A stretch of DNA of 60,740 nucleotides from a virus. The position numbers and the translations under genes were made by a program. Numbering within the stretch: position 1 is the first letter of the stretch; each line of letters opens with the position of its first letter. The stretch lies in IMG/VR virus record IMGVR_UViG_3300044825_002458, positions 1-60,740 of that record, one strand, 5' to 3'. The notes beneath the pieces are model-generated. The model ran no database searches and was not told the origin of the DNA. It saw only the letters and a list, made by a program, of their open reading frames with translations. Positions 9,473 to 33,733 of this stretch are shown in pieces.

Positions 9473-9659
9473 TTGACCTCCAGTACTCAATGACAATCGC
9501 AACGATTACCGCTGCGATCATGAACCCCATAGAAACTAGGTTGACCACATCCACAAAGTTCAACAGCTGATGCTTCCACATCAAGTAGAAGGCTCTACCG
9601 AGGGCCGAAACTGCAATCAGCCCGGCTACTACGGTGGTAATCAAAGTGGTGAGAGTCAC
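9459..9659 (-). CDS. Small two-helix membrane protein
   Basis: A 66-residue protein with two membrane segments (residues 5-24 and 38-59) joined by a charged turn. It starts at GTG 9659, overlapping the stop of the upstream gene as GTGA. It is a second tiny membrane protein in this cluster; function unknown. Confidence 0.6.
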   Translation of the reverse strand: MTLTTLITTVVAGLIAVSALGRAFYLMWKHQLLNFVDVVNLVSMGFMIAAVIVAIVIEYWRSNVGA

Positions 9660-10582
9660 TTTGAACCTCCTGCGGATCGAGCTCCGCCCTTATGACCGAG
9701 CTTCCTCAAAGTCGCCCTGATCTTCCGAGCAGTCGACTCATCGCCTCGCTCCTTGGCGATCTTCAACTGCTTAATCATCGAGTCCAAGTTACCCTTGTCG
9801 ATCGTGAGCGTGAGCTTCTCACCGCGTTCGCCCTTCTTAGCCCTGACCGAGTCGTATACGGCGCCTTCGATGAGCGACGGTACCTTACCCTCGAGCGCCA
9901 CGTGTTGAGCCGTCAAGTCGATGGCGAATGTTACTCGAGGACCTCCGGGCTCATCGCTTGTCATGTCGCAGTGGCGAGGCCCGCCCGCGGTGATGGACGC
10001 TGCTCGATGCTCCATCAACTTCGAGATCAGCATATCAAGAGTGCGGAGATTCTTAACGTGAATGATCGGCGACGATGCCAGCTGAGTCAGCTGGTCTAGG
10101 ATCGTCATCTTCCCATTGAGTTGTTGCCAGATGAACTGATTCGCCGCCGCCGTGATGTCCGCACTGAGCGACGACATGTCTTCACGCGGGTCTCGGTCGA
10201 AGTAGACGATCGACTTGATCGAGTACGACTTGCCAGACCACTTGCAGAAGATGTCGATGCAGTAGCATGGAGCTGCTAGGTGAGAATGCTTTGACCTAGT
10301 CTCGGTCATCCTCCACCACCCGTGGAATTCCACCTGTTGCCCATCCACAGGAATGTAGAACCTGAAGTTGATGTCCTTCATCCCTGCCAAGTCATACCAG
10401 ATGATCTGGTACTGCTTGAACCCGCGACTGAGCGGAGACAGCTCCTTGTGCTTCATCGTGAGTTCTTCGCCATCGTCGAATCGGACGACCGCAGTAGTGT
10501 CCGTACTGCTCAGCACTAGACCCTCATAGGGGTCGCCGTCGAACATGGCGCTTACTCGAATACCCTGCTTGATCTGACTCAT
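9656..10582 (-). CDS. Tudor-like protein with RAKLR-type basic tail
   Basis: A 308-residue protein with three visible parts. Residues 8-50 form a small barrel-like domain (GIRVSAMFDGDPYEGLVL, then VVRFDDGEEL) that closely resembles residues 172-218 of the SSB-like protein at 20466-21542. The middle is unrecognised. The last 35 residues carry the motif RKIRATLRKLGHKGG shared with three other proteins of this phage. Together these suggest a nucleic-acid-associated role, possibly with the SSB. This is inference; I know of no named family. Confidence 0.6.
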   Translation of the reverse strand: MSQIKQGIRVSAMFDGDPYEGLVLSSTDTTAVVRFDDGEELTMKHKELSPLSRGFKQYQIIWYDLAGMKDINFRFYIPVDGQQVEFHGWWRMTETRSKHSHLAAPCYCIDIFCKWSGKSYSIKSIVYFDRDPREDMSSLSADITAAANQFIWQQLNGKMTILDQLTQLASSPIIHVKNLRTLDMLISKLMEHRAASITAGGPRHCDMTSDEPGGPRVTFAIDLTAQHVALEGKVPSLIEGAVYDSVRAKKGERGEKLTLTIDKGNLDSMIKQLKIAKERGDESTARKIRATLRKLGHKGGARSAGGSK

Positions 10583-10896
10583 GACCGTTTAGCCTCCGCT
10601 TTCGCGATTTCGTCCTTGATCTGGTTAATCACTCGCTCACAGCGGTGATACGTAAGTGTGACTACCAACATGTCTACACATGATGCCCAAAGCTTAGACA
10701 TGAGCTTCCTTGCTTCGTCGTCTTCAGCTTTGTTGACCATCTCCATCACAGCGTTCCTCAACTCAATGACCAGTGATGCCCCCGTAGGTGACAACCAGAT
10801 ATCGAGTCTATTGTTGAGGTTCATCCGGTGACCCTCTTGAAGTGTCTCGAACGTCACCTTCTTGAGCCTCAAGACCGCTAGATCGGTTGTGCTCAT
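10579..10896 (-). CDS. Hypothetical helical protein, 105 residues
   Basis: A mostly alpha-helical protein with heptad-like stretches (residues 45-100) and a Lys/Arg-rich end. No motif is recognised. It sits between two genes that both encode the RAKLR-type tail and overlaps them by four bases on each side, so the three are probably co-translated. Confidence 0.6.
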   Translation of the reverse strand: MSTTDLAVLRLKKVTFETLQEGHRMNLNNRLDIWLSPTGASLVIELRNAVMEMVNKAEDDEARKLMSKLWASCVDMLVVTLTYHRCERVINQIKDEIAKAEAKRS

Positions 10897-11522
10897 TTTG
10901 CCCCTCCCTTGTGACCGAGCTTCCTTAGCTTGGCCCTGATCTTCCTCTTCTCCGAGGCATCCGTCGACTGTCGAAGTTGGTTAACCAACGTCTCGACATC
11001 CCCACTCATCGGAGCCCTCGAGGTTTCTACTTTCTTGGCGGTTGCCTCGAGGTGATAAGCCTTGGCAATGACCTGTCGATCTTCCTCGCTCAATTGAGTT
11101 CGTTCCAACCTGTCGGTCGTGAGCCGTTCACGATTCAACTCTCTCATTATTGGACCTACCTTGTAGATTAGTTCGGCCATGGTTGTTGAGAAATCCTCGC
11201 GCATCGGAGGATACTTGGTACCACCGCCTGCTTCAGCGACCTTAGTACCTAGTGCGGTTAATTTGAACGCTAGCCTGTTCCCCGCCCACTTCCACTGCAT
11301 GATGAGCTTCTTGGCCTTCAGCGCACCGAGCGCCTTCTCGAACCCTTCCCTCTGTTCTTGCAGTGGGCGATTGATCCAAGGATTCGGTAAGAATCCAAAA
11401 CGGGGCTCACCGAACTCAATCTGGCGGATCCCCTTGTTCCCATAGTAGCCGAGGAACATCATCAAGCTATGCTGAGGTTGTGACAACCCTAGTCGCATCG
11501 CGAGAGAGGTATCAGCGTTCAT
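10893..11522 (-). CDS. Putative winged-helix protein with RAKLR-type tail
   Basis: A 209-residue protein. The N-terminal 90 residues look like a winged-helix fold: a helix with LMMFLGYYG, a helix with FEKALGALKAKKLI, then a beta pair WKWAGNRLAFKLTALG. The C-terminus ends KRKIRAKLRKLGHKGGAK, the motif shared with 9656-10582, 11649-11870 and 35383-35676. DNA binding or early transcription control is plausible. It is the first gene of the 7.7-11.5 kb operon, with a promoter immediately before its ATG. Confidence 0.6.
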   Translation of the reverse strand: MNADTSLAMRLGLSQPQHSLMMFLGYYGNKGIRQIEFGEPRFGFLPNPWINRPLQEQREGFEKALGALKAKKLIMQWKWAGNRLAFKLTALGTKVAEAGGGTKYPPMREDFSTTMAELIYKVGPIMRELNRERLTTDRLERTQLSEEDRQVIAKAYHLEATAKKVETSRAPMSGDVETLVNQLRQSTDASEKRKIRAKLRKLGHKGGAK

Positions 11523-11648: not shown

Positions 11649-11870
11649 TCACTTGCCTTCCTTGCGCAGGCCACCGGTGTGTCCGCGCGCACGGAGCTTC
11701 GCGCGCAGGCGACGCTTCTCGTCCGCGTCGGTCGCCTCCTCGAGCGTGGCGAGCAGCTGGTCGACGGTGCGCTCGTCACGGGGACGACCCGGCGAACGTG
11801 CCTCGTCCGACTTCGCGCTCTTCTTGGTCTTCGGGGACTTCTCGGCGGTCTTCTTGCTCTTCTTGGCCAT
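11649..11870 (-). CDS. Small basic AT-hook-like protein
   Basis: A 73-residue Lys/Arg-rich protein. Residues 1-25 are lysine-rich like a histone tail. Residues 26-31 contain SPGRPR, which fits an AT-hook core. The C-terminus is KRRLRAKLRARGHTGGLRK, the same motif as in three other proteins here. It has its own promoter inside an inverted repeat and its own terminator, which suggests separate and probably strong expression. A nucleoid-associated or DNA-condensing role is inferred. Confidence 0.7.
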   Translation of the reverse strand: MAKKSKKTAEKSPKTKKSAKSDEARSPGRPRDERTVDQLLATLEEATDADEKRRLRAKLRARGHTGGLRKEGK

Positions 11871-11971: not shown

Positions 11972-14071
11972 CTAGAACCCCGCAACTTTTTTCAATCGCT
12001 TCGACCATTGGATAGTCTTAGTACCCTCGACGAGTCTATTCGACCTAGCCAGCTTAATCGCCTCGTCAAGGTCAATGCCGACCTCCTTGGGGTCGACCTT
12101 CTGTGACCATCGCTTGATTACCACCTCAGCATCGACAATGATCGGCATGAAGAAGTCAGTATGGTTCTCCATTAGCCTGATGATGGTGGGTACCAGTACT
12201 CTCTGCTCAGACCTAACCATCTCAATGACCAGCTCGTCATGCACCGTCAGGATGACTCTTGACTTGTATCCGCCCTTCCTCAACATGTAGGCAATATCGA
12301 CCAAAGCTCGTTTCATCAAATCCGCTGATGTGCCTTGACAGTCATAGTTCAGGCCCTTGTATGCAAACCTGACAGGTATGTGGTACCGCCTACCGAACGG
12401 ATTTCGAATGTATCCATTACGGGACAGCTCGACCTTCAGATTGTTGGTGGTTCGTCGAACGCTGGGGAACTCATCATGGTATACTGACAACCACGACCTA
12501 GTTTGATCAGCCGTGGTCGGGAATCCATCCCTTGTCATTGTCTCCGCCAGTGTGTCGGCGCCCGATCCATACAACGGACCGAAGTTGACCTTCTTAGCGC
12601 GCTTTCGCTGCTCGTCAGTAACATCCTCCGGCCGACATCGATTGATCTTACTTGCAGTGTGGCGGTGGATATCGTTCAGGATGGCTTTCACCATCTTTGG
12701 GTCTTGGGCGAAGTGTGCGAACAGCCTCATCTCGACTTGTGAATAGTCGAAGTGCCAGTGGACTCGCCCCTTTCGGGGAATGAAGCATTCACGAGGCCCC
12801 AGCAATCTTGGCATGTTCTGAAGATTGGGCTCGGATGACGAGAACCTCCCCGTCTTGGCTTCAGCTTGATTGAACGAGCAGTGGATAATACCAACTTCTC
12901 GACCACTCGGCTCAACCTCAACATCGGTAGCCATTTGAAGCATGTTATCGTAGTATGTGCTAACCATCTTCGATAACTCGCGGAACTTCAATACGAACGG
13001 AGGGAGCAATTCACTCGTACTCAGCTTGTTAACTCTAACCGCCTTCTTGACCTCTCGATAGAACTGAGGGAATAGCCACCCTTTCTCGCCAGATTCACGG
13101 ATAACCGATTGAAGAGGTGGACTGACATACTGGATCATGGCGTACTCGTCGAACGACCATCGACCGCCGCCCCTCACCTGACCAGACTTGTCTTTCTTAG
13201 GCTTAGTTCGATGCTTAAGCTCGATACCAACCTTGTTGAACGCAGCCTCCATTTGAACAGGGCTACCAGGGTTGAACGACTCGATCTCGAGCGGTATTTG
13301 AACTTTGACCTTTTCCCCCTTTACTCGCTTGGTCTTGTTCTTCATTATCGTGAGCTTACCCACGACCTTATTCAACTGGTCTTTCAGCTTAGCCACTCCA
13401 ATAAGTGACCTCTCCCTCAGTTGCTTTACTCGAGTCAAGTCGATAGGGACACCTCGATCTTCCATATCGACACAGTCGAACATCAGCTGTTGCTCAGTTC
13501 GATACAACGCTTCACACGTCTCTCTGATTCTACTTCGGAAAATCTCGTAGAGATAGATTGTAGATTCGACGTCCCACAGGTTACGACGTTGAACGATCTC
13601 GATTGGGGCATCGCTGAAGTTAGGTGCCCTACCATGTTCGAGCATGAAGCGACGCCGATTGGCTTTGAGCCATTCGATGATCTCGTCCTTATCACCCGGG
13701 TCCCTATCCGCGAACCGAATAGCCAACGATCGGAGGTCGTGGTTTGGCAACAGCGAGTTAACAAGCTTGCTTTGAATCAGTGTGCAGTGAGTCCTCGCTC
13801 GAGGAAACTTTACACCCTCAACGCCAAGGAACTTGATCTCGGTCTTCATGTTGTGACCGACGAACTCGTTACTTGTGTTACTTACCTGGCGATTCAGCCA
13901 CTCGATCGAGCTCGGTGTGATTCGAGTAAACCCGTATTCACCCTTGTTGGTGAAGAAGCTGAAACAGAAGGCTCTGTTGCCCTTATAGACGTTAAGGCCG
14001 TTTGTCTCTACGTCAATAGCGACGATACGACCATGAAGATCGGGGAATTCACATGCTTCAGTACCTCGCAT
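11972..14071 (-). CDS. DNA polymerase, family A, with 3'-5' exonuclease
   Basis: A 699-residue replicative polymerase. The exonuclease domain shows motif I AIDVETNG (D20, E22), motif II GHNMKTEIKFL and motif III in LWDVESTIYLYE. The polymerase domain has motif A FDYSQVEMRLFAH, motif B RAKKVNFGPLYG and motif C TVHDELVIE (H611, D612, E613). All catalytic acids are present. There is no 5'-3' exonuclease domain, as usual in phage enzymes. The ATG overlaps the dCMP deaminase gene by 64 bases; no later start keeps the first exonuclease motif. It lies downstream of the nucleotide genes in one transcription unit. Confidence 0.95.
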   Translation of the reverse strand: MRGTEACEFPDLHGRIVAIDVETNGLNVYKGNRAFCFSFFTNKGEYGFTRITPSSIEWLNRQVSNTSNEFVGHNMKTEIKFLGVEGVKFPRARTHCTLIQSKLVNSLLPNHDLRSLAIRFADRDPGDKDEIIEWLKANRRRFMLEHGRAPNFSDAPIEIVQRRNLWDVESTIYLYEIFRSRIRETCEALYRTEQQLMFDCVDMEDRGVPIDLTRVKQLRERSLIGVAKLKDQLNKVVGKLTIMKNKTKRVKGEKVKVQIPLEIESFNPGSPVQMEAAFNKVGIELKHRTKPKKDKSGQVRGGGRWSFDEYAMIQYVSPPLQSVIRESGEKGWLFPQFYREVKKAVRVNKLSTSELLPPFVLKFRELSKMVSTYYDNMLQMATDVEVEPSGREVGIIHCSFNQAEAKTGRFSSSEPNLQNMPRLLGPRECFIPRKGRVHWHFDYSQVEMRLFAHFAQDPKMVKAILNDIHRHTASKINRCRPEDVTDEQRKRAKKVNFGPLYGSGADTLAETMTRDGFPTTADQTRSWLSVYHDEFPSVRRTTNNLKVELSRNGYIRNPFGRRYHIPVRFAYKGLNYDCQGTSADLMKRALVDIAYMLRKGGYKSRVILTVHDELVIEMVRSEQRVLVPTIIRLMENHTDFFMPIIVDAEVVIKRWSQKVDPKEVGIDLDEAIKLARSNRLVEGTKTIQWSKRLKKVAGF

Positions 14072-14463
14072 CCGGCGTCCCTCAATAAGTTTCGGCCTTC
14101 GGGGTCTCGGTAGTCATCTAAATAGACTACCCTTCTGATACCTCGTTGAATTATACGCTGCGCGCACATTATGCACGGTGAGTGAGTTGAGATCATGGCC
14201 AAATTAGTCTCAACACTACGAGCCCTAAGAATTGCGTTCTCCTCTGCATGAAGACACATGCATGCTCCTTGAACACCAGTGCACCGATGGCGTGGGAGTC
14301 CCTTGGCCGGCCCGTTGTAGCCGATCGACACAACTTGTGTCAGATCGGCGGTAGTGATTATCGCACCCACCTTGGTTGGGCGATTGCAGGTCGATCGACT
14401 GCTCCACAATAGCGCAGTGACCATGTGGAGCTCAAGTCGAGTCGGACGTTCATCAGAAGACAT
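14008..14463 (-). CDS. dCMP deaminase
   Basis: A 151-residue zinc-dependent cytidine/deoxycytidylate deaminase that converts dCMP to dUMP and feeds dTMP synthesis. The zinc site is complete: HAEEN (H72, E74) and SPCIMC (C97, C100). A VGAIIT strand and GYNGPAKGLPR loop match the family. It is encoded directly after the synthase-like gene, with an 11-base overlap, and before the polymerase. In T4 the same enzyme works beside dCMP hydroxymethylase and dCTPase. Confidence 0.9.
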   Translation of the reverse strand: MSSDERPTRLELHMVTALLWSSRSTCNRPTKVGAIITTADLTQVVSIGYNGPAKGLPRHRCTGVQGACMCLHAEENAILRARSVETNLAMISTHSPCIMCAQRIIQRGIRRVVYLDDYRDPEGRNLLRDAGCEVLKHVNSPIFMVVSSLLT

Positions 14464-15250
14464 TGCGATCCTTCAAGTCTCGTCGATATGCATGTAGAGA
14501 GCCAGTGAAGTAGGTGAACGTGCCGATCTTCAGATCCAGCTCTGACGCGACGAGGTCTTGGAACATCATTGCCAACAAGATGTCGACCAGGAAGTGAGTC
14601 AACAGGTCGCACGACCTCATCGTGTAGATCAAGTCGACCGCCCCTTCTCGCGACAACAGTTGGTAGTACATCGAGCAAGGGATTCGGCCAACACCCCCCG
14701 CAAGGTTCTGGTCCTGAGACAGTTGAATGTCCAGCCCATCCCCTCCGTTTCGATACACCGGTGCGGATGGCACAGACAGTCCGTTGAAGATCGAGATGAT
14801 GCACTGGCGACTGTCGGCATTGTCCCTCAGTCGTCGCAAGACCGGCTTGAGTTGCGGTACGATACGTTCCGAGTAGGTGTAGTGGAACTTACCCTCTTCG
14901 TCACAGAAGTCATTCCACACCGACTGTCGGTGCTTCGACGAGTTCCCCGGATTGAGCGGGCGATTGCGATAGAAGCGATCATGGAACTCCTCGGTGATGT
15001 AGTTGTAGACCTCATTGACTTGTTCTTCACCGATCAAGTAGGCCACCAGCGAGGTAATCTGAAACTGAGTGACTATATCTCGGCTACCACTGATCTGGAA
15101 CCCATAGGCTCGAAGCTCCTTGGTAGTGAACTCTTCGGGGTCGGTAGCGACCTTGTTCTGCATGCTGGAGGGACGGGTAATGATACCCATCTCCCAGAGG
15201 TCTCGTTCGACTTCGCGGACCGCTTCCTTGATGTTCTGATAGATTCGCAT
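14453..15250 (-). CDS. Thymidylate synthase / dCMP hydroxymethylase family protein
   Basis: A 265-residue member of the ThyA superfamily, which adds a one-carbon unit to C5 of dUMP or dCMP using methylene-tetrahydrofolate. The catalytic cysteine is in IPCSMYYQ (C192). The phosphate-binding MRSCD follows, and TYFTGSLHAYRRD fits the C-terminal His/Tyr motif. In place of the canonical LGLPFN the sequence reads THFLVD, so by my alignment the asparagine that selects uracil is replaced by aspartate. That swap is characteristic of dCMP hydroxymethylases. The N-terminal half is diverged. Substrate remains uncertain (dUMP or dCMP), and so does the product (methyl or hydroxymethyl). Confidence 0.75.
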   Translation of the reverse strand: MRIYQNIKEAVREVERDLWEMGIITRPSSMQNKVATDPEEFTTKELRAYGFQISGSRDIVTQFQITSLVAYLIGEEQVNEVYNYITEEFHDRFYRNRPLNPGNSSKHRQSVWNDFCDEEGKFHYTYSERIVPQLKPVLRRLRDNADSRQCIISIFNGLSVPSAPVYRNGGDGLDIQLSQDQNLAGGVGRIPCSMYYQLLSREGAVDLIYTMRSCDLLTHFLVDILLAMMFQDLVASELDLKIGTFTYFTGSLHAYRRDLKDRNVF

Positions 15251-16149
15251 CAGACTGCCTTTTCGAAGCCCAGAGCTTCGACTTTGAGGGTTGGTGGAAC
15301 GTTCTTCTTGCTGTGACCCATATGCTCCATCCAGCGGCGTTTGATCCGCTTGAATGGGCCGTACTTCTCGTGGCTGAGCATGTCGTTACCGTGCTCCTTG
15401 TATGCCTCAAGGATCTTCAAGTACCAGATGGTCATGTGGTACCAGGTGGGGCTCATCGAACTACGCTTCTTTTTGAGCCCCTCCCTACCGAGGTTCGCGA
15501 GCGACTCAAGCTCCTTGAACAGGTGTTTCTTCGAAAACACATACGGGAGGGTCTTGAAGCAGTGAAGCTGCTGAGATGTGATGAACCACCGGAATGCGAT
15601 GTCGCCCTCGTACCCGCTCTTCTTGGCGATCGCTGCCGCAATCCGATTAGCGATTGCAGCATCGAGCAGGGCCATGTAGCCCATGTATGTGGTCCTCGAG
15701 TAGATCGTGAGGCACGGTGAGTTCGGATCCTTCGGGGATCCCCGGAATGTTGCTCCCATGAGACATCCGCCCCATCGATGCTTCTTCGCGTATCGATCCG
15801 GGTCTCGGAACATCATGTTCGCAGTGGCACCTTGACGAGACTCGCCCGTCACGATTTCCACTGCCTGATCGATGAATCGACTCAGCGGCTCGAGGGGCAC
15901 ATACTCACGAATGAGGCGACTCCACCGCGACCGATTGAGCCACAACTCACGACCTACGTCGAGGTCGAACTTGTAGTCCGGAGTGTAGAGGCAAGTGTGA
16001 TAGAGGTGGGTCTCGATGTTGAGGACTGCGTCCGGCGCAGGGAGGTCGATATGGCCATCGACGGCATTGCTCATCAGCTCGGTCATATCCGAGCCCTCAA
16101 TGAACCACATGCCGTATCGATGGTCAAAGTTACTGTATGCGGTTCCCAT
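15250..16149 (-). CDS. Second, highly diverged thymidylate-synthase-like protein
   Basis: A 299-residue protein without a simple family match. Its core reads WGGCLMGATFR (C129), then LTIYSRTTYMGYMALLD (R152), an Ala/Ile-rich helix, and FITSQQLHCFKTL (H196). This parallels the order in ThyA enzymes: catalytic Cys, the RSxD phosphate motif, a buried helix, then a QLH-like motif. I infer the same fold with altered substrate contacts. The start is ATG 16149, overlapping the dUTPase stop as TGATG. A longer frame upstream lies wholly inside that gene. Adjacency to the first ThyA-like gene suggests consecutive steps or a heteromer. Confidence 0.55.
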   Translation of the reverse strand: MGTAYSNFDHRYGMWFIEGSDMTELMSNAVDGHIDLPAPDAVLNIETHLYHTCLYTPDYKFDLDVGRELWLNRSRWSRLIREYVPLEPLSRFIDQAVEIVTGESRQGATANMMFRDPDRYAKKHRWGGCLMGATFRGSPKDPNSPCLTIYSRTTYMGYMALLDAAIANRIAAAIAKKSGYEGDIAFRWFITSQQLHCFKTLPYVFSKKHLFKELESLANLGREGLKKKRSSMSPTWYHMTIWYLKILEAYKEHGNDMLSHEKYGPFKRIKRRWMEHMGHSKKNVPPTLKVEALGFEKAV

Positions 16150-16898
16150 CAGTAGTTGCTCCGTTGGCGAAACTGATTGACCGCATGCTTCTTGTGGTAG
16201 AAGATGAAGACATCCTTCATGCTGAGCCCCATGAACGAGATGATTCCAAAGAGCTCGTACCAGGCCGCCAGGAACATGGATCGGAACATCGCCGCGTCTG
16301 TGGCCATCTGGGATTGCTTCCACGGCTTGTTCTTGAGTGTGTTGGCGGCAAGCCCCAGATACCGGATCGTATTCCACAGCATACGATCACATGCAACCGG
16401 ATCGGACGCCACCGCCTCGGGATTCAATGACCTACGGAGCGTCGAAGTCGCGGTGAGCCCGCTTCGTTCGAACGACTTAGTCGCCATCCGAGCTACGTCG
16501 GTCGGCGAAACCATCGCGATGATGGATGCCTCGGTCATGAAGTGAACGGCATCGATCAGTTCTTCTACGCAGTGGCGGAAGCTCGATGAAGTGCCTTCCT
16601 CCACTTCACCGTATGTCGGATAGAACTCGAACGCTTCGGCCAACTCCTCAGTGGCTCGCCAGAACATGTCCTTCAACCGAGCTTGGACTTTGGAATCATC
16701 GATCGAGTAAGCCGGCCACTGGATGTCGGACATTGAAATGGCGTATTCGCCAACCTTGGTTGGAATCACCGCCCCATTACGAGCCTCAATGGGCTCGTAC
16801 TTGTGGATCAAGGCCATCTGGCCTTCGAAGATCTTGACTACCATCTCGTAGTCGGTGACCGGGATGTTGAGAGGGTTTTCCACGTCGTCGATGTTCAT
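16149..16898 (-). CDS. All-alpha dUTPase/dCTPase (MazG superfamily)
   Basis: A 249-residue nucleotide pyrophosphatase of the dimeric dUTPase type. Metal-binding acids appear in TEELAEAFEF (EExxE) and EELIDAVHFMTE (EExxD). The C-terminus has the signature KKHAVNQFRQRSNY, which binds the base and phosphates in this family. T4 dCTPase-dUTPase (gp56) belongs to the same group, so hydrolysis of dUTP, dCTP or both is possible. It would supply dUMP or dCMP to the two synthase-like proteins encoded next. Confidence 0.85.
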   Translation of the reverse strand: MNIDDVENPLNIPVTDYEMVVKIFEGQMALIHKYEPIEARNGAVIPTKVGEYAISMSDIQWPAYSIDDSKVQARLKDMFWRATEELAEAFEFYPTYGEVEEGTSSSFRHCVEELIDAVHFMTEASIIAMVSPTDVARMATKSFERSGLTATSTLRRSLNPEAVASDPVACDRMLWNTIRYLGLAANTLKNKPWKQSQMATDAAMFRSMFLAAWYELFGIISFMGLSMKDVFIFYHKKHAVNQFRQRSNY

Positions 16899-16901
16899 GG
16901 T

Positions 16902-17357
16902 TCACTTTCCTTGTTCAAGCATTGCCGAGCCGAGTACACAGTACCCGACGATATCGGTAAGGGTGTCTACGATGGACTCATTGAGGTTGTTAGTCGATGG
17001 GTTCTTGCTGAGGTTCTCGAATCGATCGACCTTGCTACCGATCCGCATGAACATACCCGCGTGACCCCACTTAATCAGTCCGCTGTCGCCGTATGCGATA
17101 TGCTTGCTCATCAACATATTGGCGAACTCACTCAAGTCGAGCATATCGCCCGACTTATTCAATTGCGCCAGAGCCAGTCGAGCAAGCTCGCAGTAGTATT
17201 TCCGAAACATCTGACGAGTTGATGTCCCCGCTCTGATCTGCTCAGAGATAGAGTCAATCGCCATCGTCAATGTGTGCAGTGGAAATATCACCGCCTCACA
17301 TCCCGCTTGGAGGTCCCAGAAAGTTTTCTTGATGTAGTCGATGTTTGGCAACAGCAT
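16902..17357 (-). CDS. DUF1599 (nucleotide modification-associated) protein
   Basis: A 151-residue helical protein matching DUF1599: IAYGDSGLIKWGHAGMFMRIGSKVDRFENL and then ESIVDTLTDIVGYCVL. The family is described as nucleotide-modification associated because it co-occurs with phage base-modification genes. Its biochemical activity is not established. It sits two bases after the primase-helicase stop and just before the dUTPase, at the head of the nucleotide block. Confidence 0.75.
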   Translation of the reverse strand: MLLPNIDYIKKTFWDLQAGCEAVIFPLHTLTMAIDSISEQIRAGTSTRQMFRKYYCELARLALAQLNKSGDMLDLSEFANMLMSKHIAYGDSGLIKWGHAGMFMRIGSKVDRFENLSKNPSTNNLNESIVDTLTDIVGYCVLGSAMLEQGK

Positions 17358-23740: not shown

Positions 23741-24087
23741 CAGAATGGCTCCTCAATCAAGTAGTGCTTCATGGTGTCGATACCCTTTGCGGTACTCACT
23801 TCGCGAGCACTACGGATGATTCTGAACTTACGCTGGTTGAACCAGACTGGTTGACCATCGCTCATGTCGGTCTTGAAGTGGAAGTTGAACTGGGCCACTT
23901 CGATTTCGCCACTCGGATACTCCTTCAAGAAGCGAGTGATTTTGACACCGCTCTTCCGTTCGTAGTGTCGGAGGATTGCGTCGATGGTTTCGCCGCACGG
24001 TTCGCCATGCACACAGGGGAACGGGCTAACACATTCACCGTTAGGCAGGATGAAGCAGTTGTCTCGGATCTCTTTGAACTTGGTCAT
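23740..24087 (-). CDS. Hypothetical protein, 115 residues
   Basis: Starts at ATG 24087, overlapping the upstream stop as ATGA. An earlier ATG at 24225 lies inside that gene. The leader just before the start is A/C-rich (CACAAACCAAACCA) with no ribosome binding site. The sequence has CVSPFPCVHGEPCG, a possible metal site, and a beta-rich C-terminal part (IEVAQFNFHFKTD). I do not recognise the family. Confidence 0.55.
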   Translation of the reverse strand: MTKFKEIRDNCFILPNGECVSPFPCVHGEPCGETIDAILRHYERKSGVKITRFLKEYPSGEIEVAQFNFHFKTDMSDGQPVWFNQRKFRIIRSAREVSTAKGIDTMKHYLIEEPF

Positions 24088-24515
24088 TGGTTTGGTTTGT
24101 GGGGAGTTGGCCAGATGTATGGGAGATTGTTTGGCTCGACCCATCCGTATCGACCGTACCAGGTTGGGTCTTTTCGCAGGAGGTTCGATCGATGAGAACT
24201 GTGGAAGTCTTCGTAGAAAATCCACCAGGGCAGCTCAATGCGATCGGGTAAGTCGAACAACTTCATGGTGTTTCGAAAACCTCGCCTACACCACTCGACG
24301 ATCGCTAAGTTGTGATAGAGCTTCAGCGCGTCCAGCTTACCATCCCACATTATCCTAGCCGGGTGGTTTGCCCAACCTTTGACTACCTCACCCGATTGGA
24401 TCTTGATAGTGGCGTTAACAAGCTGCATGGCCTCTACTCTTTGTTTGCCCAGCCTCTTGTTGTCGAGCGATTCGACCGATCGACGGAAGCACGGGTATGG
24501 TAGAAACGTTTGCAT
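24084..24515 (-). CDS. MSMEG_6728-like / pyrimidine-dimer glycosylase-related protein
   Basis: A 143-residue protein beginning MQTFLPYPCF with SLDNKRLGKQRVEAMQL and then WANHPARIMWDG, the signature of the MSMEG_6728 family found in bacteria and phages. The family resembles endonuclease V-type pyrimidine-dimer DNA glycosylases, so a DNA repair role is likely but not demonstrated. It lies in the recombination and repair block, directly before the SNF2-type helicase in sequence order. Confidence 0.75.
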   Translation of the reverse strand: MQTFLPYPCFRRSVESLDNKRLGKQRVEAMQLVNATIKIQSGEVVKGWANHPARIMWDGKLDALKLYHNLAIVEWCRRGFRNTMKLFDLPDRIELPWWIFYEDFHSSHRSNLLRKDPTWYGRYGWVEPNNLPYIWPTPHKPNQ

Positions 24516-32991: not shown

Positions 32992-33477
32992 TTACGCAGT
33001 GGAACGATTCGGCAGAATCAATTCCTCGGCAAAGGAGTAGAACGAAGTAGCGCCAATGACCATGTGATCCAGGAGTGGCACTCCTAGTAATTCGCCCGCC
33101 GCTCGCAAGCGATCGGTAATCAGGCGATCCTCCTTGGATGGTGATGGGTCACCCGATGGGTGATTGTGTGCCACGATGACACCGGCGGCGCAGCAGTGAA
33201 TGGCGGGACAGAACACCTCTCGAGGGTGAACCGTAACCGCTTCTGCCGTGCCAATGGACACGTTGTGGACCGCGATGACGTTGTTCCGTGTGTCCAGGTA
33301 GAAGGCAATGAAGTGTTCTCTCGGTTCTCGACCGATCATTGCGAACGCGATCGACTGCAGATCGTCGGCCCGTTTGACTCGCTGCACGGCGTAGCCTGTA
33401 TTGGGCTCGAGGGCCAGGGTCACACGAGGTGGGCTGCAATTCGGCCTGTGGACTTGGTCACGTTTCTTTGGAGGCAT
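32992..33477 (-). CDS. RadC-like JAB/MPN-domain protein
   Basis: A 161-residue protein matching the RadC C-terminal domain. The metalloprotease-like motif AHNHPSGDPSPSKED (H104, H106, D117) is intact. The upstream strands (EHFIAFYLDTRNNVIAVHNVSIG) and the end (ELLGVPLLDHMVIG) also match. The HhH domain of full RadC is absent. RadC-like proteins are common in mobile elements, but their reaction is unproven. I start at ATG 33477 because the leader has the conserved AAGTAACAACC box; an earlier ATG at 33579 would overlap the upstream gene. Confidence 0.85.
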   Translation of the reverse strand: MPPKKRDQVHRPNCSPPRVTLALEPNTGYAVQRVKRADDLQSIAFAMIGREPREHFIAFYLDTRNNVIAVHNVSIGTAEAVTVHPREVFCPAIHCCAAGVIVAHNHPSGDPSPSKEDRLITDRLRAAGELLGVPLLDHMVIGATSFYSFAEELILPNRSTA

Positions 33478-33487
33478 GATTCTCTTT

Positions 33488-33733
33488 TCAGGGTTGATGG
33501 TTGTTACTTCGTGATGCAGAGGATTTGTCAGATCGCGGCTGCCGATGCACAAAGGTGAGGCATGAGTAGTGGACCGCATACTCTTTGCCGTCTTTGTCCA
33601 TCCGCACCATCAGATATCCGTGTTTGGTCTTGCGGGCATTTGTGACAATGCCTTGGCCTTTGGGCTCACCCCAGTACCTTGCCTTTACTTCCACGATGTC
33701 GTGGAATTCGAACTTAGGTATGGGGGGTTTCAT
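33488..33733 (-). CDS. KOW/SH3-like small protein
   Basis: An 81-residue protein with EFHDIVEVKARYWGEPKGQG and then GYLMVRMDKDGKEYAVHY, typical of a small KOW or SH3-like barrel. The C-terminal tail is Ser/Arg-rich and its last codons form the AAGTAACAACC box used as the leader of RadC. Role unknown. Confidence 0.6.
   Translation of the reverse strand: MKPPIPKFEFHDIVEVKARYWGEPKGQGIVTNARKTKHGYLMVRMDKDGKEYAVHYSCLTFVHRQPRSDKSSASRSNNHQP

Follow-up and report, generated by a model that had tools for sequence, protein, structure and literature searches.

The virus record IMGVR_UViG_3300044825_002458, analysed over its entire length of 60,740 bases (the window), carries on its minus strand, from position 17357 down to 14008, five tightly packed genes that lead into a family-A DNA polymerase gene (11972–14071). 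This block is probably a phage pathway making C5-modified deoxycytidine monophosphate (dCMP) for incorporation into phage DNA. By sequence or model, it encodes a dCMP deaminase, an all-alpha dUTPase/dCTPase, and two proteins with the thymidylate synthase (TS) fold, each possessing a cysteine, a phosphate-site arginine, and an aspartate at the base-selecting position. These two proteins are designated here TS (14453–15250) and TSL (15250–16149), and positions such as 146, 147, 166, 169, and 177 are E. coli TS residue numbers. An earlier note on this DNA had described five coupled genes and a possible pyrimidine modification system. All five genes are confirmed where the note had placed them, and the coupling of two TS-fold genes with deaminase, dUTPase, and DUF1599-like genes is real. 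Modification of a pyrimidine, namely cytosine, is the best reading of Asp at 177, of TS folds in both proteins, and of a T4-like combination of dUTPase/dCTPase and deaminase, to which relatives add a deoxynucleoside monophosphate (dNMP)-type kinase. The genes are as follows:

16902..17357, minus strand: DUF1599 or nucleotide-modification-associated-domain-1-like protein (Nmad1), 151 amino acids (PF07659 weak; phrog_1485, 1.7e-13)
16149..16898, minus strand: all-alpha dUTPase/dCTPase-like nucleotide pyrophosphohydrolase, 249 amino acids (PF08761, 1.7e-6; phrog_12184, 3e-21)
15250..16149, minus strand: TSL, diverged thymidylate-synthase-fold protein, 299 amino acids (phrog_13667, AlphaFold 2 model, Foldseek, conservation)
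14453..15250, minus strand: TS, Asp177-type thymidylate synthase homologue, 265 amino acids (PF00303, 4.8e-13; AlphaFold 2, Foldseek, family census)
14008..14463, minus strand: dCMP deaminase, 151 amino acids (PF00383, 3.9e-18; phrog_174, 2.6e-39; PDB 4p9c, deoxycytidylate deaminase, 2.2e-17)
11972..14071, minus strand: DNA polymerase A, the next gene of the operon (PF00476, 2e-71)

TS is a member of the thymidylate synthase superfamily, as its fold, its residues Cys192, Arg212, and Ser213, and its match to Thymidylat_synt (PF00303; 49 bits against a cut-off of 24.3, E 4.8e-13) attest; a profile built from related sequences matches E. coli TS at 9e-35. Structure prediction, which had been proposed as a check, returns the TS fold for both synthase-like proteins. 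For TS, the AlphaFold model has a predicted local distance difference test score (pLDDT) of 84 and yields 396 PDB matches at E<=0.001 with Foldseek, the top 50 being TS-fold throughout. The closest of these folds is the mildiomycin CMP hydroxymethylase MilA (E 1.7e-15; template modelling (TM) score 0.65 by query length), although MilA is a ribonucleotide enzyme of a Streptomyces antibiotic pathway and shares only 17–18% identity with TS. The motif THFLVD had been read as carrying Asp in place of the uracil-selecting Asn, and alignment of RSCDLLTHFLVD of TS with RSCDVFLGLPFN of E. coli TS bears this out, placing Asp223 at the Asn177 position. The same alignment locates the remaining landmarks:

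14675-14677, minus strand: Cys192, the nucleophile (Cys146)
14615-14617, minus strand: Arg212, phosphate site (Arg166), followed by Ser213 (Ser167)
14582-14584, minus strand: Asp223, base-selecting (177)
14684-14686, minus strand: Arg189, three residues before the Cys (position -3)
Further TS residues, by alignment: Arg148 (R126), Ser193 (147), Asp215 (the pterin-binding 169), and His253

TS shares with canonical ThyA the fold and the order of Cys, Arg, Asp169, and His207. It differs from this dUMP (deoxyuridine monophosphate)-specific enzyme, which is marked by Asn177 and His147, in that Asn177, His147, and Leu143 are replaced by Asp223, Ser193, and Arg, and in that the C-terminal tail is absent. 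These replacements typify the whole family: in 154 of 156 scorable synthases, position -3 is Arg, position 147 Ser or Thr, and position 177 Asp, the exceptions being an extra canonical ThyA in Microbacterium phage Triscuit and a degenerate copy at locus L136. Within the TSL-anchored set, Asp177 is present in 74 of 75 synthases, and the odd one out, with Asn, is again the Triscuit ThyA. Because the Asn-to-Asp change at 177 shifts TS specificity from dUMP to dCMP, and because synthases on contigs with modified cytosine mostly have Asp at this position (PMC8670742), the substrate of TS is, judging from sequence, very likely dCMP.

Likeness to the dCMP hydroxymethylases, which had been suggested for TS, holds for the base-selecting Asp (Asp179 in T4) but not for position -3, and since TS has Arg there, the likeness is limited to the base-selecting residue. 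In T4 gp42, Asp145 at -3 from the Cys is conserved as Asp or Glu and is essential for water activation (PMC6400193). By its sequence, then, TS is not a T4-type hydroxymethylase. The residue at -3 is Asp in T4 gp42, Glu in RB69-type 5-hydroxy-dCMP synthase, Asn in Stenotrophomonas phage AXL1, Leu in E. coli TS, and Arg in the window family; the product of TS cannot be read from known members, as its Arg differs from the residues of all of these.

TSL belongs to a catalogued but uncharacterised family, phrog_13667 (function unknown; E 4.8e-26 over residues 40–274). The earlier note had thought it undescribed, which stands in so far as the family is uncharacterised; however, the family has been catalogued, and two database records name diverged members 'pyrimidine hmase synthase'. 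Pfam searches of 45 TSL members returned no meaningful family and no TS match, and the window TSL likewise has no significant Pfam match. The predicted structure (pLDDT 91.8, predicted TM score 0.90) nevertheless carries the TS fold: its top 50 PDB matches are exclusively TS-fold, 12 of them at E<=0.001, and most of the highest-ranking named viral matches are of this kind too. Motifs WGGCL, YSRTTY, and SQQLH, previously seen to lie in ThyA order, indeed contain TS landmarks, assigned by their spacing:

15763-15765, minus strand: Cys129 (WGGCL)
15694-15696, minus strand: Arg152 (YSRTTY)
15661-15663, minus strand: Asp163, eleven residues past Arg152
15562-15564, minus strand: His196 (SQQLH)

In the TSL model, Cys129 lies just ahead of a strand, Arg152 is three residues before the next strand ends, and the helix after that contains Asp163; this layout matches that of Cys192, Arg212, and Asp223 in the TS model. 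Cys129, Arg152, and Asp163 are invariant in all 79 covering relatives (80 aligned), and His196 is retained in 76. The place of the pterin-binding Asp169 is taken by Tyr155 in the window and by Tyr in 76 of the 80 aligned relatives; this loss suggests that TSL works without folate. Against its nearest relative, L005, the window TSL is identical at 165 of 286 aligned residues, and base differences number 98, 83, and 173 at codon positions 1, 2, and 3, respectively; as the differences gather at third positions, the resemblance is not due to chance. Among the collected loci, the TS family and the phage dCMP hydroxylase AfhB are the only other good matches of an iterated TSL profile, which reaches 39 TS members at E<1 (best 8e-5) and aligns their active sites with that of TSL; the best value of a reversed-sequence control is 0.86.

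The module is present in more than 100 other phages. A scan of 2.9 million viral contigs with TSL gave 71 TSL loci, and the best 80 of 511 loci were kept from a synthase-anchored search; relatedness among the loci and duplicate retrieval of some contigs mean that locus counts do not represent independent events. TSL and TS form an almost obligate gene pair: an Asp177 synthase lies directly downstream of TSL in 68 of the 71 loci (the other three contigs end at or within TSL), TSL occurs at 51 of the best 80 synthase-anchored loci, and TSL is situated just upstream of TS, less than 1 kb away, in 121 of 134 pairs. The recurrent order is kinase, dUTPase/pyrophosphatase (dUTPase/dCTPase), TSL, TS, dCMP deaminase, and DNA polymerase I, and it spans phages of Actinobacteria and Proteobacteria—Mycobacterium (Muddy), Streptomyces, Microbacterium, Serratia, Pseudomonas, and Yersinia. 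Zuko, Triscuit, Shrew, Nodigi, CherryonLim, Serbin, Almagne, and Yersinia P744 are cultured phages with the full order, and Muddy and Strzyga retain it except for an annotated deaminase. In Muddy, which grows on M. smegmatis mc2 155, gp46 is TS and gp47 is TSL; Zuko grows on Streptomyces griseofuscus, and PMBT14, grown on P. fluorescens ATCC 13525, is a further cultured carrier. DNA polymerase is the constant downstream neighbour, being found in 100 of 102 fully flanked TSL loci; 90 of these loci have the deaminase, 79 a kinase-like gene, and 69 the dUTPase. Two scans of 84,980 prokaryote genomes, covering close relatives of the query sequences used, found no TSL.

Gene packing in the window is correspondingly tight. 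Three nucleotides separate the DUF1599-like gene from the dUTPase gene, the dUTPase/TSL and TSL/TS junctions each have one base in common (TGATG), TS and deaminase genes overlap by 11 nucleotides, and deaminase and polymerase genes by 64. The families first assigned to these genes hold for the dUTPase (dUTPase_2, PF08761; 28.9 bits against a cut-off of 22.9), the synthase, and the dCMP deaminase (PF00383; 65.7 bits against 25, with zinc motifs HAE and PCIMC), but the DUF1599 match at 16902–17357 is below threshold (PF07659; 21.5 bits, E 3e-4, against 25). This DUF1599-like gene stands where most relatives have the dNMP-type kinase, and L005 has two such genes at that position.

Three unusual loci concern the pair itself. 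In Triscuit (L001:6031-9108), TSL, the Asp177 synthase, and the canonical Asn177 ThyA amount to three TS-fold genes in 3.1 kb. At L136:5066-7387, TSL is followed by a TS copy that has lost its Cys (Thr in the alignment) and has Asn at 177, and then by a normal Asp177 TS; the middle gene is suggested to be a decaying or repurposed third copy. In Pseudomonas phage Almagne (L165:6640-7203), a short open reading frame past TS matches the iterated TSL profile at 1e-8, which suggests a second, partial TSL.

Following established TS chemistry, Cys192 of TS would attack C6 of dCMP, Asp223 would select and protonate the cytosine, and a one-carbon unit from methylene-tetrahydrofolate would be added at C5; folate use is proposed because Asp215, the equivalent of pterin-binding Asp169, is kept. 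The pyrophosphatase would clear deoxycytidine and deoxyuridine triphosphates, and the deaminase would convert unmodified dCMP to dUMP. A kinase, phage-encoded in most relatives and probably supplied by the host in the window, would pass modified dCMP on to the phage polymerase. The module appears to work like the T4 precursor pathway. Both have Asp177, Cys, Arg, and Asp169 in the synthase, along with a dCTPase/dUTPase and a dCMP deaminase, and relatives of the window also share the dNMP-type kinase; however, its synthase departs from the T4-type hydroxymethylase in the defining residue, having Arg rather than Asp at -3. The module also differs in the second TS-fold gene that almost always adjoins, in its family-A polymerase, and in that no glucosyltransferase is recognised. 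Provisionally, it is regarded as a novel variant among the cytosine-modification systems of phages, set apart by a second TS-fold protein that is uncharacterised.

The least certain step is that of TSL. Without using folate, it might exchange or oxidise the C5 substituent newly added to the cytosine nucleotide, or it might instead complete the active site of its TS partner. Under the first conjecture, a tentative one, TSL would be a folate-independent second C5 enzyme working on the TS product, and two consecutive TS-fold enzymes would create a hypermodified cytosine at the mononucleotide stage. As an example of such chemistry, the TSL Cys could add to C6 of a 5-hydroxymethyl-type dCMP, water could leave to give an exocyclic methylene, and a new nucleophile could then be added, while Arg at -3 of TS could hold an acidic nucleophile instead of water.

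TS active sites are formed across the dimer, taking Arg126/127 from the adjacent subunit. Given this, and as 75 of 80 TSL relatives have a basic residue close to where Arg126/127 would lie, TSL may equally be a partner subunit, the two proteins constituting one enzyme—a heterodimer or regulatory pair—with a single reaction from dCMP to 5-substituted dCMP. Retention of Arg148 by TS in all cases, the close spacing of the two genes with their shared base in the window, and the finding that no uncut contig has TSL without TS all fit this possibility. Invariant Cys, Arg, and Asp in TSL would, however, be unexpected in a mere scaffold, and TS is present without a recognisable TSL at 29 of 157 synthase loci, many of them short but 13 fully flanked; as such loci exist, TS can act alone or with other partners.

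A less probable account gives TSL the role that AfhB has in RB69-type phages, that of a flavin-dependent 5-hydroxy-dCMP synthase, with the base starting from 5-hydroxycytosine and the neighbouring TS making a second change. AfhB, described as flavin-dependent in its PDB entry title, ranks first among the PDB fold matches of TSL (9iqu, 1.5e-5; the complex with dCMP and flavin adenine dinucleotide, 9iqc, is also matched) and is a weak match to the TSL sequence profile; both proteins keep Asp177 and have lost Asp169, which is Asn in AfhB and Tyr in TSL. Synthesis of 5-hydroxy-dCMP is moreover an established activity of the TS superfamily (PMC13390438). Identity between the two is, however, only around 10%, members of the TS family are found by the TSL profile as well, and the modules show no recognised flavin reductase, a gene at which no specific search was aimed. 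AfhB also differs in being a single enzyme linked to arabinose-type sugar genes, with no TS partner found and a single TS-fold gene in the RB69 region.

Ordinary supply of deoxythymidine monophosphate (dTMP), by a diverged thymidylate synthase with the usual dUTPase and dCMP deaminase and no modified base, is also improbable. The deaminase and dUTPase likewise serve dTMP synthesis and database records label the gene simply thymidylate synthase, but Asp177 prevails throughout the family, a separate canonical ThyA accompanies the Asp177 synthase in Triscuit, MW202455 has a separate FAD-dependent thymidylate synthase, and TSL is left unexplained. Least likely is a dCMP methylase giving 5-methylcytosine throughout the DNA as in Xanthomonas phage Xp12: Asn177Asp alone turns TS into a dCMP methylase (Liu and Santi 1992, as cited in PMC8670742) and the Xp12 relative AXL1 has a similar set of Asp177-type TS adjoining deaminase and pyrophosphohydrolase, but the AXL1 synthase has GLPYD, Asn at -3, and a long ThyA-like C terminus, in all of which the window TS differs, and no TSL was found in the AXL1 stretch examined, which has DHFR.

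AXL1, used here as the comparison phage for Xp12-type systems, is a restriction-resistant phage for which the genetic mechanism was left open by its authors (PMC9206674). The combination of GLPYD, Asn at -3, and Asp177 in its synthase (L167:6623-7564) is a candidate dCMP methylase signature.

Several observations weigh against a cytosine-modification pathway. TS lacks the -3 Asp/Glu that the T4 hydroxymethylase uses for water activation. As had been noted before, no kinase or glycosyltransferase is recognised in the window, and neither is a carbamoyltransferase, among the open reading frames scanned (some small ones lay outside the scan), so that no kinase or transferase is at hand there to complete a hypermodification. 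TM scores of TSL against TS structures are modest, reaching at most 0.46 by query length and 0.60 by target length, and direct TSL–TS profile–profile comparison with hhalign is not significant (probability 3.5%). As this comparison and a search of PDB sequences gave nothing, homology of TSL to TS rests on fold, key-residue spacing, and the iterated profile, and the sequence evidence for it is thin. The literature on cultured phages bearing the module yielded no nucleoside analysis or chemistry, and we know of no chemistry for any phage with the TSL/TS module. Finally, EcoRI patterns served to type Brevundimonas isolates from a set in which two carry the module (PMC10070969), which is a weak argument against a bulky change on all cytosines.

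Synthases without TSL tend towards a second context. C5-methylase-like genes lie near TS at 13 loci, 12 of them without TSL, and asparagine-synthase/amidotransferase genes at 11, all without TSL. Such a neighbourhood is plausibly a modification context in its own right, and alternative follow-up chemistries may act on one common synthase product; context labels cluster on the synthase tree yet require several changes. Loci L112, L117, L128, L130, L133, L138, L139, L141, L142, L145-L147, L149, and L152-L157 have Asp177/Arg(-3) synthases, mostly without TSL, beside C5-cytosine-methylase-like, asparagine-synthase/amidotransferase, DUF6378, or N4/N6-methylase-like genes, and represent a putative separate modification cluster. 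In gut phage DP SC_6_H4_2017 (L004:7148-8774), two TSL copies and TS are followed by genes for the cytidylyltransferase IspD (1e-26) and the phosphotransferase LicD (8e-39), beside DNA polymerase. These two genes may serve to transfer a CDP-polyol to the modified base, or may have a surface role unrelated to it; LicD/IspD was rejected as a general partner of the module, being present in L004 alone among the collected loci.

In phages of many hosts the module is annotated mostly as 'thymidylate synthase' and 'hypothetical protein', its apparent carriers including Mycobacterium phage Muddy, many Gordonia phages, and Serratia, Pseudomonas, and Yersinia phages. If the proposed pathway is correct, the DNA of these carriers contains a modified, perhaps new, base. 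This would bear on how they resist restriction and CRISPR, on how they can be manipulated genetically, and on type IV restriction as a barrier to them in the host. The TS superfamily would also gain a branch with uncharacterised chemistry, and Asp177 would be seen to combine with no fewer than three further active-site types at -3 (Asp/Glu, Asn, and Arg).

Other features of the window lie outside the block. Neighbouring proteins at 9656-10582, 10893-11522, and 11649-11870 (all minus strand) end in near-identical basic C-terminal tails, RKIRATLRKLGHKGG, RKIRAKLRKLGHKGG, and RRLRAKLRARGHTGG, and the same motif recurs at L005:10656-11375 as RKIRARLRALGHTGG. Also on the minus strand, 24084-24515 encodes a pyrimidine-dimer DNA glycosylase, a repair enzyme of T4 DenV type (PF03013, 4e-21), and 32992-33579 a RadC-like JAB-domain protein (PF04002, 5e-40).

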